Positions 33,161 to 45,660 of a DNA stretch of 64,000 bases are shown here, in pieces. Made by a program: the position numbers and the translations under genes. The stretch's first letter is position 1. Each line of letters opens with the position of its first letter. Origin of the DNA: Spongilla lacustris (taxonomy: Eukaryota; Porifera; Demospongiae; Spongillida; Spongillidae). The DNA is taken from the NCBI GenBank assembly GCA_949361645.1, contig OX442434.1, forward strand, positions 7,045,444 through 7,109,443, written 5' to 3'. The notes beneath the pieces were generated by a model. That model was not told the origin of the DNA. It worked only from the letters and a program-made list of their open reading frames with translations, and did not search any database.

Positions 33161-33196
33161 TTAGGGTTAGGGTTAGGGTTAGGGTTAGGGTTAGGG
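33161..33196 (+). repeat. Interstitial telomere repeat, (TTAGGG)6
   Basis: Six perfect repeats directly after the truncated right arm of IR1. Orientation is that of a true right-hand chromosome end. The next base begins the recombinase element (ACCCTGTCTCATCG). Confidence 0.98.
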
Positions 33197-34387
33197 ACCC
33201 TGTCTCATCGAAATGCATCAAGCTCGGTCGCGCTCAGCGTCGCTTTCGACTCTTGCCGGCAAGTTATGAATTATGCGTACACGCATGCATGGCCAATAAT
33301 TGCCAGCGACGAACACCGTGCTCGATTCGCTAAATAGTCATATATGTCACATACAAAGACGCGCGTTTAAGCCCGGACACGAAAGCACCGCCCCCACTGT
33401 GACGTCACACGAGCCAAAACGTTTTACTGTCCGACACTCGAGAACAGCTGGTGCTTGGCGTTGGCACAGCCGAACTCTGCAGACAAAGATCTATCGGCCA
33501 AGGGGTTTTTTTAGGTCGTGGGACCGCGAGTCTCTATACGCCTACCACCATCTTGGATCTCCACGACTGTAAGGCTCACGCTCGAAAGGAACCCTTCGGG
33601 CTACGTGGAACCGCCACTAAAGCTAGCCCACCCGATTTTTGTCGCTCTACCGTACTCGTATGGCTAGCAGTGCTGACTAGAAGTTGTCATGAAATCATTA
33701 CTGGTATAGGGCAATGTATGGGACTGCATAATTATTAACTCATTTCAACCCAGCCGCTAGAATGTACAGTACTATCTTTAGAAGCCTCACGTGCATCCTA
33801 AGAAACGACGTAGACGCCTATCCGGGCCGCGCACGTCCGTAGATCCATCTACTTAGTGTCCGTATATGTATTTCCCCGCCCCCCCTTACGCGTATCTTTT
33901 ACAATTGTGTTGTGCTATGACTTTATGCCTGGGCTACCCTAAGCCCAACTCATGTTTGTTGTGGTTTGTCATGTACACGGTGTAGCGCCGCCGTGTCGAC
34001 TCGAGATAAAATAAAATAAAAACAAGCGGCTATGTCGCTCGTACCGTATATCCATTTCAACTAAATCATTCCTTCATCTTCCGTGCATGCCGCTTTACTG
34101 CCCGACGCCCCTAATCCCGCACCCCATTCCTTGCTGCCCCCCCCCCCCCCCCCCCCCCTGTTTGAATAACCGGTCGGATACTGCAACGGCTAGGTGCCTC
34201 GTACCGTATATCCATTTCAACAAAATCATTCCTTCATTACTCATGCCTCAACTGGTGCAATTTCTAAAAATAAATTGCACCAATGGATATCGCGCGTTCG
34301 ACGCTTCCACGCAATCGTAATATATCCTACAGACGCCACTTTTGCATTCGTTTGCTTTCTTCTGCAACGTAGATTCTATAATACTAC

Positions 34388-36301
34388 ATGGAAAGGGTTC
34401 AAAGTGTCTTAGAACCACAGCCTGGACCTTGTCTCCGAAAGCGTCCCCGCCGGGAAGCGCTACAACTCCGCCTTGCTGATTTTCCTGCAGTGCAGCGGCA
34501 AATGGCACAACTTAAGGCTCACTTGCAAGAACCATTGTCCGAAACGCGGCAAACGGAACCACTTGCTAATATTACCGTCCAGGCTACTCAGCGACGTCTC
34601 TTGAGTACGTATATATATATATGCATGCAGTGATATATCTATACCCACGTCCCATGCAGCTTTCTTGGGATACTTGCGCAGCAAACTGCCTGCAGGCGGT
34701 ACTACTGAACCAGACCTTATTCAAGTGTCCAATGCCGATCTGTTGAGACAATTTCTCAAATTCATGGAGGTTATCGCGTCTCTGTTCTATATATATAATG
34801 TGTGCTTTACTTTATCCTTATTTTGGACTTGTAGGACGAACGAGGCTCTGCTGCAGGAACTCTTTCCTGTTACTGCCAATCTTTTTTGCACGCCCTAAAC
34901 TTTCTGAGATCAGAGGGCGACTGTTCCGTTACTATTAGGCACTGGTTGACTACCTATCAGAAGGCAGCTAATCGTCAGAGGGACGTATCGTGGCAAAGGT
35001 TGAAGGCTAAAGGCGAGTACTATAATTATTATATGGCATGGATTTTTATATACTTTCATGTTGGTAATTTTATACATTAGGGAAGTGGCTAGTATGGAAG
35101 GAAATTTTGGACGTTTTGAAGCTGCAGAGGGAACTATATGAATCCGCTGGGTCCACGTTCGCCAAGGCGTGGGAGTCACAGAAATTCACGGTTCTTTTGA
35201 TGTACTGCGCTATACCACCGGCGAGGGGACGCGAGTACAGAGAACTCCGGTTCACATTCACCGAAGAGGACCTTCAGCTCTGGGAACCCGACAGCACCCA
35301 GTCAAACTGGCTGCTGTTGAGCGGCAACCACTCGCGCGGTTTGCTGTACGTCGGAGCGCACAAGACGTACAGGCATATTGGAGTGCAGCGTATAGAATTG
35401 TCCGCCGATGGCTCCACTAACGTGCTTCTGGAACAGTTAGTGGCCTTTGTGTGTAGAGACAGACCAGCTCTGCTCCAAGGACGCACCCCACAAGACTTTC
35501 TCTTCCTGGTAAGTATATAATTTATACATAATGATTATAATTATGTATATAAAAACTGTATAATAGCTTTTAGTGTTTTTTTTGTTTGTTGTTTTGTTTT
35601 TTTTTAAACAGAACCACGAAGGTCACCCCTACGCAACTTCAGATAGCTGGACAAAATATATACAGTCTATTTTCTTGCAGCACAAAGACGTGTCGATATC
35701 AACCAACACAATTAGAGCATCGTACGTCACACACCTTCTGTCTGGAGACGACGGCGTACCAGAACACGTACTCGTACAAGCGGCCAGGGCCATGAGACAT
35801 AGTAGGAAGGAACAATGCCGCACTTATGACAAGAGAACGTCGTCCGACAAGGTCGCGTTCGCCGTGGACCTTTCTGCGACACAGGCTTCATCTGCACTAG
35901 GAATCGCGGCGGGACCATCCACGTCGTCCCGGAAGGCCTCCAAAAAAAAAAAATGCAAGCTGCCCCCTTCTGTGGGCGACATTGTCGCCCTAGCTGAAGA
36001 CGCTTCCACCAGAGAACATCCAGTCATCTTGCTCGGAAAGGTGTTAAGGATATACCCGGATAGCCGGGAGGTACTGCTCGCCCATCTCAAACAGGTGGAA
36101 AAGAGCAGGAAATCCAGGCCCGACTACAAAATCACAGCGGGAAGGGACGCCTGGGTGGAAGGCTTCGACTCGCTCGTCTTCCCCATTGACATCGCCTACG
36201 ATACAGCTAGAGGCGTTTACTCTCTCCGGACGCCAGTGCGTGACATTCATGATCATGTGTTCGATGGTCAGGATTCGACGGATTCGACGGATTCGGACTG
36301 A
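34388..36301 (+). CDS. Crypton-like tyrosine recombinase, intact copy
   Basis: Exons 34388-34604, 34660-34769, 34835-35012, 35081-35508 and 35612-36301 join in frame to 540 residues. The third intron starts with GC (GCGAGT), a GC-AG intron; the second donor is weak. Catalytic residues of the tyrosine-recombinase fold can be placed: Arg217 in PPARGREYREL, a Lys in the strand LYVGAHKTY, Arg346 in TNTIRASYVTH, His374 in MRHSR and Tyr383 in CRTYDKR. After a Ser- and Lys-rich linker the C-terminus (VGDIVALAEDAS, GKVLRIYPDSREVLLAHL) resembles a small beta-barrel, possibly reader-like. Such enzymes cut and rejoin DNA through a phosphotyrosine without needing homology beyond a short crossover site. 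All key residues are present. The Crypton-like label rests on a spliced eukaryotic recombinase without reverse transcriptase. Confidence 0.75.
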
Positions 36302-44700: not shown

Positions 44701-45617
44701 CGTCGGGCAGTAAAGCGGCATGCACGGAAGATGAAGGAATGATTTAGTTGAAATGGATATACGGTACGAGCGACATAGCCGCTTGTTTTTATTTTATTTT
44801 ATCTCGAGTCGACACGGCGGCGCTACACCGTGTACATGACAAACCACAACAAACATGAGTTGGGCTTAGGGTAGCCCAGGCATAAAGTCATAGCACAACA
44901 CAATTGTCGACGCGTAAGGGGGGGCGGGGAAATACATATACGGACACTAAGTAGATGGATCTACGGACGTGCGCGGCCCGGATAGGCGTCTACGTCGTCA
45001 ATAATAATTTCTTAGGATGCACGTGAGGCTTCTAAAGATAGTACTGTACAGCCTAGCGGCTGGGTTGAAATGAGTTAATAATTATGCAGTCCCATACATT
45101 GCCCCATACCAGTAATGATATTCATGACAACTTCTAGTCAGCACTGCTAGCCGTACGAGTACTGTAGAGCGACAAAAATCGGGTGGGCTAGCTTCAGTGG
45201 CGGTTCCACGTAGCCTGAAGGGTTCCTTTCGAGCGTGAGCCTTACAGCCGTGGAGATCCAAGATGGTGGTAGGCGTATAGAGACTCGCGGTCCCACGACC
45301 TAAAAAAACCCCTTGGCCGATAGATCTTTGTCTGCAGAGTTCGGCTGTGCCAACGCCAAGCACCAGCTGTTCTCGAGTGTCGGACAGTAAAACGTTTTGG
45401 CTCGTGTGACGTCACAGTGGGGGCGGTGCTTTCGTGTCCGGGCTTAAACGCGCGTCTTTGTATGTGACATATATGACTATTTAGCGAATCGAGCACGGTG
45501 TTCGTCGCTGGCAATTATTGGCCATGCATGCGTGTACGCATAACTCATAACTTGCCGGCAAGAGTCGAAAGCGACGCTGAGCGCGACCGAGCTTGATGCA
45601 TTTCGATGAGACAGGGT
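41564..45617 (-). mobile_element. Tyrosine-recombinase element, right arm of IR2
   Basis: Inverted copy of 33197-37238 ending GAGACAGGGT, directly followed by CCCTAA repeats. Indels relative to the left arm include a 4-bp insertion in the recombinase gene, a 2-bp TA insertion near 44424, an extra ~10 bp near 44505 and local differences near 44905 and 45000. Confidence 0.75.
42493..44408 (-). pseudogene. Tyrosine recombinase, frameshifted copy
   Basis: Same exon structure as the left-arm gene in reverse (first exon 44408-44192, last exon from about 43182 to the stop at 42493). The exon carrying Arg217 has four extra bases at about 43640-43644 (CATG after GAACGTG), which breaks the frame at about codon 193, before all catalytic residues. 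The final exon with Arg, His and Tyr is intact. The copy is therefore inactive unless translation restarts. Divergence in only one arm shows the palindrome is not a simple assembly reflection. Confidence 0.75.
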
Positions 45618-45660
45618 CCCTAACCCTAACCCTAACCCCTAACCCTAACCCTAACCCTAA
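45618..45660 (-). repeat. Interstitial telomere repeat, (CCCTAA)7
   Basis: Seven repeats, one with an extra C, in the orientation of a left-hand chromosome end. It lies between the recombinase palindrome and the subtelomeric satellite, mirroring the TTAGGG tract at 33161. Confidence 0.98.

Follow-up and report, generated by a model that had tools for sequence, protein, structure and literature searches.

The mobile sequences known from chromosome ends are for the most part retroelements, giant crustacean viruses or the Y' element of yeast. The telomere-attached retroelements include HeT-A and TART of Drosophila, the Terminons of rotifers and the MoTeRs of fungi, and in the fungal Starships a tyrosine recombinase (YR) is the first gene at the fixed end. 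According to the available parts of the respective sources, the spread of yeast Y' is attributed to break-induced replication, possibly with the participation of circles, and its open reading frames (ORFs) are reported as conserved (PMC13177704), and the interstitial telomere tracts of the MoTeRs of Magnaporthe are reported as (TTAGGG)1-10 and break-prone (PMC7367193). The present analysis concerns a window of 64,000 nucleotides from the sponge Spongilla lacustris (assembly GCA_949361645.1, contig OX442434.1), which represents the right end of the 7.1-Mb contig C21 in an assembly of 248.6 Mb and 51 contigs, and in which two copies of an element with a YR gene adjoin short TTAGGG tracts. We favour, at about an even chance of being right, a telomere-attached mobile element that is acquired by broken chromosome ends and copied by telomere-primed recombination. 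No published description of the sponge element was found in a literature search of limited coverage.

Short telomere tracts at the fixed end of the element

The exact 14-base terminus of the element occurs 23 times in the genome, and 18 of these occurrences continue as the element (family F1). In all 18 copies TTAGGG repeats lie flush against the terminus, always in the GGG^ phase, and the order is ordinary DNA, then 1.5-9.5 TTAGGG repeats, then the element with its ACCCTG end inward and its body outward. The remaining five matches (C7, 1.2-1.7 Mb) belong to a different repeat without TTAGGG, and a DNA search with the first 804 bases (45 matches) gave no further F1 starts. As C7a and C7b, C10a and C10b, and C13, C15c and C15d share flanks, the 18 copies have 14 distinct ones. 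Terminal arrays read for comparison hold 196 repeats (window end) or extend over roughly 0.9 kb (C18); by hand arithmetic, the chance that all 14 tracts have at most 10 repeats is far below 1e-10 if positions were uniform in arrays of ~145 repeats. Later contraction of the tracts is an alternative account of their shortness. Nine copies of class B, distributed over seven flanks, are 100.0% identical along ~1.42 kb when gaps are disregarded, which indicates a very recent spread, and three of the nine (C13R, C15c and C15d), which share a flank, may represent one event. One head-to-tail pair was seen, C15a and C15b, with a separate Penelope-like element between them.

Further evidence comes from counterpart sites, that is, copies of the flanks elsewhere in the genome that remained unfilled. 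Six were found, none with a telomere array, and the overlap with the repeat amounts to 0-7 nt. The search covered the loci that were read (matches of flank C21b left out) and was extended with 19 of 22 flanks, 39 of 2028 candidates being scored; flanks for which no unfilled copy was read are uninformative. The sites are as follows:

C21a (left copy of the window): the mirror position at window 2143 and C1:9915349 read GTACTTATACATTG (...GACATGTACTTATACATTGC), the window site reads GTACTTAGGGTTAGGG (...GACATGTACTTAGGGTTAGGG)
C15b: a Penelope-like coding frame reads ...GTGTAGCCAGAAC on C19, compared with ...GTGTAGCTTAGGG
C19R: poly-G followed by AAAG in L037 and L043, compared with TTTAGGG
C39: ...GCAATATTAGGCTTTC, 1.3 kb away, compared with ...GCAATATTAGGGTTAGGG
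C1L: ...TTCTTCTACCAC, compared with ...TTCTTCTTAGGG
C5a of family F2: ...TTTCAGGGTTATGCAAC on C16, compared with ...TTTCAGGGTTAGGGTTAGGG

Ordinary DNA that turns into repeats where no array stood before is the typical picture of a telomere added de novo to a broken end. The C15 end in L037 presents the same healing with the element absent, and one of the counterpart breaks lies within the coding frame of a Penelope-like element, which supports acquisition by broken ends.

In regard to chromosomal position, 11 of the 18 F1 copies point to the nearest contig end (C1L, C1R, C2R, C7b, C11L, C13R, C14R, C15a, C15b, C19R and C21a). Two copies, C7a and C21b, point inward, each as a member of an inverted pair, while C15c and C15d sit behind a telomere array and a 200-N gap, so that probably another end was scaffolded there the wrong way round. 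The remaining copies are the interior inverted pair C10a and C10b, and the copy on C39, a contig of 127,650 bases. A census of telomere tracts with at least three exact repeats each comprised 88 tracts, seven of them on contigs of unknown length. Among the 42 interior tracts on contigs of known length the polarity is 22:20 and F1 is present on two only (the C10 pair). Among the 39 tracts within 400 kb of an end, which include terminal telomeres (C5, two C18 edges and C21) and the C39 tract, 34 point outward and 22 carry F1, F2 or E3. Because subtelomeric tracts exist partly through the element, only the interior comparison is an independent test, and interior telomere repeats are hardly used as targets.

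The original prediction had proposed a recombinase element that targets telomeric DNA, and had held that copies at non-telomeric sites with unrelated flanks would speak against it. The association with telomere repeats proved general, as the 18 copies show; the flanks are unrelated, yet a short TTAGGG tract lies between flank and element in every one of them. The targeting of standing telomeric DNA is not supported, given six unfilled counterparts without an array and the element on 2 of 42 interior tracts. Telomere repeats beside a mobile element need not mean insertion into a telomere.

Two more termini were recognized. F2, a relative of F1 (75-83% over part of the query), is present in 12 places, nine of which have a (TTAGGG)n TTTAGG/AACCCTTCAG junction (TTTAGG/AACCC), and 11 copies are at most 261 kb away from a contig end, towards which they are oriented. 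In the F2 copy of C18, 12.4 kb separate the tract from the terminal telomere, by way of the YR gene, the second gene (ORF2) and repeats. This left-end telomere of C18 (L046) begins directly on a short inverted copy of nearby sequence, as though a fold-back had seeded it, so even that outer end looks like a healed break. The third terminus, E3 (TTAGG/CACTTATTTCTCATAAAAG; TTAGG/CACTTATTTCTCATAAAAGTCGCTGAGCGG in L069 and L070), was located by a 30-mer in 22 places, 20 of them exact, and is flush with TTAGG in 10 of the 22. Sixteen E3 termini point outward near an end, four point inward (three behind the C15 gap), one is in the interior of C7, and C39 carries one. The orientation of E3 does not support its being the other end of F1, nor do its positions support its being the 3' end of the Penelope-like element. 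Another degenerate telomere tract, ending AGGGACCCACTGACC, was seen in L060 (C1:115120), possibly marking one more attached family.

At the distal side, F1 copies with their common ACCCTG end stop at different points. Measured from this fixed end, the stops are at ~0.19 kb in C10b (nested insertion), 1428 in C1R, 1939 in C2R and 2752 in C14R, and in longer copies at ~4.06 kb in C21b, 7.36 kb in C7 and ~8.37 kb in C21a. C11, C15c and C15d enter N gaps, C13 and C19 reach contig ends at ~6.8 kb, and C1L, C15b, C39 and C15a extend for at least 8.5 kb as far as the sequence was read. Telomere repeats in the same orientation on both sides are present in no read copy, the readable distal ends being truncated ones. 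In the C10 copy (L031/L032), a ~6.2-kb insertion lies at element positions 60-63 with a 4-bp overlap, and the copy is located at the ends of an inverted pair 589 kb apart.

Other repeats share these surroundings. A Penelope-like frame with reverse transcriptase (RT) and GIY-YIG parts is located at the right end of C15 (L043 9473-10000, and L044), its 3' side inward. Its coding frame is cut where three TTAGGG repeats and then an element copy follow; near-identical copies lie near the C19 and C5 ends, and the open frame comprises 801 amino acids on C19 and 699 on C15. In the interior of C7, at ~3.25-3.30 Mb, an E3 terminus is found together with a TTAGGG tract and a close copy of the Penelope-like element, which looks like a former chromosome end that has become internal. 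Tandem arrays with a period of ~24 kb that contain the C1L flank are found in subtelomeres of C14, C39, C1, C11 and C6.

The palindrome at the right end of C21

The features of the window are the following:

33161..33196, + strand: (TTAGGG)6 tract at the boundary between host DNA and the left copy
33197..41563, + strand: left element copy, C21a, delimited by alignment with C15a (L035), which runs on beyond
33197..33260, + strand: fixed terminus ACCCTGTCTCATCGAAATGCATCAAGCTCG..., at which all 18 F1 copies in the genome start, flush with TTAGGG
34388..36303, + strand: YR gene of the left copy, open, 540 amino acids, with inferred exons 34388-34604, 34660-34769, 34835-35012 (GC donor), 35081-35508 and 35612-36303
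40100..41563, + strand: start of the second gene, ORF2 (class A), which the fusion cuts short before the SET-like C-terminus
41561..41563: fusion point, where ACA fits both truncated copies
41561..45617, - strand: right element copy, C21b, inverted, nearest to the C15a and C14 copies
42491..44408, - strand: YR gene of the right copy, with a 4-bp insertion in exon 4 (43286-43717) that shifts the frame
45618..45660, - strand: CCCTAA tract of 7.0 units plus one extra C, between the right copy and a 17-bp satellite
2140..33163: inverted duplication of host DNA, its outer edge being the break onto which the TTAGGG tract and the left copy were added
62821..64000, + strand: (TAGGGT)196, the telomere of the current chromosome end, carried by the 17-bp satellite 17 kb past the fusion

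The layout described in the original prediction, with six TTAGGG repeats, inverted arms and a CCCTAA tract, is present in full, as are the flush outer ends (TTAGGG/ACCCTG and CAGGGT/CCCTAA); the left YR gene is open and the right one frameshifted. The arms, 33161-37238 and 41564-45654, share 98.6% identity over 4108 aligned bases, telomere tracts included, and a comparison in ungapped pieces recovers these arms as well. C15a carries the arm together with the entire middle, 37239-41560, and proceeds beyond element position 8352 in coding sequence, uninverted, and the middle is for this reason the remainder of the left copy and not the spacer of a palindrome. A longer ORF2 is present in L035/L043 and L026, compared with the truncated one of the window. 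In its first 1.4 kb the left copy is 99.8% identical to the C7 copies, and the right copy 99.9% to C15a and 99.8% to C14, whereas left and right share 99.1% with each other. Since the arms belong to different subclades, two distinct element-bearing ends were joined. Judging by these alignments, the palindrome is two truncated copies of one element (~8.37 and ~4.06 kb), joined at a 3-bp microhomology (ACA), and the right-hand tract belongs to the inverted second copy. The proposal that the palindromic element forms a unit thus fell with the uninverted C15a, and the alternative offered beside it, two telomere-borne copies fused end to end, gained the support of the different subclades and the microhomology.

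Past the right tract, a degenerate 17-bp satellite (GGCCCACATGTATTGTA-like, 45675-62820) makes up the greater part of the sequence from the fusion to the terminal telomere. Seventeen kilobases of satellite followed by a telomere would be expected of a dicentric product that was broken and then healed. The inverted host duplication, with 98.7% identity in its outer 1.7 kb and 97-98% in the inner satellite arms, may reflect a previous round of breakage and fusion at this end of the chromosome.

Several other origins were considered. An element with 4-kb terminal inverted repeats is excluded by the uninverted C15a and by the fact that no read copy has two fixed ends, while a sister-chromatid fold-back as the origin of the element palindrome is excluded because the nearest relatives of the two arms are different copies elsewhere. 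A further reading, in which the 31-kb host palindrome is a transposon with terminal inverted repeats ending at GTAC, is excluded as well, as the sequence continues past that point at C1:9915349.

Genes of the element and the origin of its junctions

The order within the element is YR gene, SET-like ORF2, repeats, and the YR is one of its main genes. An alignment of eight rows, some gapped at the earlier motifs, shows the pattern R..HKT..R..H-x8-Y, which we take to be a tyrosine-recombinase signature; the H-Y offset is 9 in seven rows and 10 in one. In Pfam (hmmscan, E<=1), four of the eight YR homologues matched Phage_integrase weakly and below the cut-off (best E 0.0058), three matched the SAM-like Phage_int_SAM_1, again weakly and below the cut-off, and two matched HEAT_GCN1_C_2. 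These weak matches together with the catalytic-type pattern point to a tyrosine recombinase. Sequence searches of solved structures with the YR matched no YR, a search of PHROGs gave nothing useful, and a profile search with the YR alignment gave 29 proteins, partly distant (22-29%) and unnamed. One gene model of Ephydatia muelleri matches ORF2 at 97% over 47% of the query and another at 99% over 34%; a nearly identical YR is present in both, by which the host would very probably be this freshwater sponge or a near relative. The SET-like signal of ORF2 is weak, with EHMT2 in 10 of 12 PDB rows at E ~0.05 and Pfam SET at E 0.083 in one of 11.

Between F1 and F2, the ratio of nonsynonymous to synonymous substitution rates (dN/dS) is 0.14 for the YR (exons 4 and 5, 361 codons), with a synonymous distance (dS) of 1.5, which is near saturation. 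For two parts of ORF2, with its proline-rich stretch left out, it is 0.28 over 447 codons of the C-terminal part and 0.25 over the 236 codons of the other. By these ratios, both the YR and the SET-like gene are under purifying selection. F1 classes A and B are ~98% alike in the YR half, while their ORF2 C-termini differ by a dS of 1.7 (314 codons), and the ORF2 of class B is nearer to F2 (dS 0.52). Such a pattern (L026 compared with L035) is that of a module swap just downstream of the YR gene, and it speaks for the account favoured here.

The succession from break to short telomere to element, the outward polarity, the loss of outer parts and the fusion can be read in the sequence itself. In regard to the mechanism, telomerase would seed a broken end with a few TTAGGG repeats. 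The fresh TTAGGG end would then prime break-induced replication at a TTAGGG/element junction, on another chromosome or on an extrachromosomal circle, and the element would be copied outward from the invaded junction. The YR would most likely excise or circularise the element, or could have made the first junction. Telomere-primed copying, the step to which we commit ourselves and which is as yet unproven, would explain the short tracts, the single fixed end, the end specificity and the like behaviour of E3. Several observations weigh against this account. The counterparts are paralogous copies of the flanks and not alleles, and F2 lacks TTAGGG at C9, C19 and C21L (three of 12), while the twelfth F2 copy, at 6.8 Mb on C2, has a tract, too short for the census, yet lies in the interior. 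No second fixed end was found, most distal sides running into assembly gaps or being unread, and C1R, C2R and C14R are continued at their cut ends by non-telomeric DNA, so that later rearrangements blur the original state. Purifying selection suggests that the YR matters for the spread, which passive copying would not require, although conservation is reported for the ORFs of yeast Y' too (PMC13177704), and the GGG^ junction phase would also fit a site-specific YR crossover.

That crossover is the core of the main rival, possible but the less probable account, in which YR-mediated recombination at GGG^TTA unites a circular element with telomeric repeats, a route proposed for telomere-specific nimaviruses and the DIRS-like element TATE, and the short tracts come from insertion into nascent telomeres or from later contraction. 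It draws on the exact phase in all 18 F1 copies, which can also be read as GGG^ in F2 and E3, on the selection on the YR with its catalytic-type pattern kept, and on the precedent of telomere-specific YR elements in the available accounts of nimaviruses (PMC10871703) and TATE (PMC6681497), but it leaves unaccounted that no tract exceeds 9.5 repeats, that interior tracts are almost untouched, that six counterpart sites lack an array, and that no right end adjoining TTAGGG was found, most distal sides being unreadable. The YR insertion and the telomere-primed copying could be combined if the YR makes circles that a healed end copies. More tentatively, and at rather low probability, the YR would produce circles with a short TTAGGG tract, and a telomerase-seeded broken end would invade such a circle and copy it outward, which would make the element an emergency cap beside telomerase. 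Spread as a host subtelomeric repeat by recombination between ends only, with YR and ORF2 as passengers, fits all the positional evidence and the similar behaviour of the E3 terminus; the purifying selection on both genes between families at large synonymous distance makes it unlikely.

Addition by an RT acting in trans, as in Terminons and MoTeRs, would require an antisense RNA with a short CCCTAA tail that anneals to the G-overhang. Short tracts, outward polarity and distal truncation do recall those elements as far as the consulted parts of their sources describe them (PMC6431247, PMC7367193), and the Penelope-like RT with GIY-YIG is located at chromosome ends. Nevertheless, none of the F1 frames listed for L026 and L035, of which YR and ORF2 were scanned by profile, was recognised as an RT, the genes read opposite to the required RNA, and the C1R, C2R and C14R cut ends have no TTAGGG cap, so that we regard this route as quite improbable; introns are no argument here, because an antisense RNA would keep them. 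A genome search with RVT_1, in which 150 of 3235 candidates were scored, is uninformative about the element. Misjoins in the assembly as the source of the junctions or of the palindrome are suggested by the N gaps in subtelomeres, by the probable mis-scaffolding on C15 (telomere, 200 N, inverted copies) and by the C7 and C10 pairs with their 99-100% identical flanks. The same junction on 14 unrelated flanks, the freedom of window 32700-46500 from N, and the differences between the arms render such an artefact highly improbable.

Relation to known telomere-attached elements

Break, healing and capping can all be followed at the six counterpart sites, and recent copies that hardly differ from one another exist beside them; chromosome-end healing in an early-branching animal is thereby made directly testable. 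Should capping by circles prove true, an animal would have, in addition to telomerase, a selfish YR element as emergency cap for its chromosomes.

As in Starships, the YR of the sponge element is the first gene at the fixed end. With Cryptons, named in the original prediction as moving by tyrosine recombinase, the element shares the YR as key gene. No DUF3504 or other Crypton-type Pfam match was obtained at E<=1 among the eight YR homologues, and membership in this group is not supported. The attachment to telomeres also sets the element apart from Cryptons as described in the accessible part of their source (PMC3212892), and no second fixed end was found, the distal ends being variable, in gaps or unread. 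Its combination of a YR with a flush telomere-repeat junction is that of telomere-specific YR elements. Within what the available texts report, TATE of Leishmania braziliensis likewise has a YR and sits within telomeric hexamers at the corresponding point, GGG^TTA, but it is DIRS-like, with RT/RNase H (PMC6681497). Telomere-inserting endogenous nimaviruses also combine telomere repeats and a tyrosine recombinase in animals; however, these are virus genomes (278-401 kb in majaniviruses) that are reported as flanked by the repeat (PMC10871703), whereas 8-12 kb of the sponge element was read, with two recognised genes and a short tract on one side.

The same partial sources allow a comparison with elements of other types. 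Attachment to short telomere repeats at chromosome ends and outer truncation, both found here, are shared with Terminons and Athena, as are the attachment through G-rich end repeats, the modular ORFs and, with the single pair C15a and C15b, a head-to-tail arrangement, but Terminons are RT-based with the RNA 3' end inward (PMC6431247), while no RT was recognised in the listed F1 frames of the sponge element and its genes point outward. MoTeRs resemble it in their (TTAGGG)1-10 interstitial tracts, constant orientation, truncated relics and rearrangements; they are retrotransposons inserting in telomeres, and the part of the source at hand mentions no recombinase (PMC7367193), in contrast to the YR carried by the sponge element. 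Finally, the placement on interstitial tracts, near ends and outward, with the C10 pair and the F2 copy at 6.8 Mb on C2 as exceptions, recalls Y', which is also subtelomeric, with interstitial telomere repeats, a variable number per end and conserved ORFs. Unlike Y' with its helicase (PMC13177704), the sponge element has a YR and a SET-like ORF2, occurs in an animal, and its attachment to healed breaks is seen at counterpart sites. What is new in comparison with all of these is a small, non-viral animal element with YR and SET-like genes on freshly healed breaks, in a sponge.

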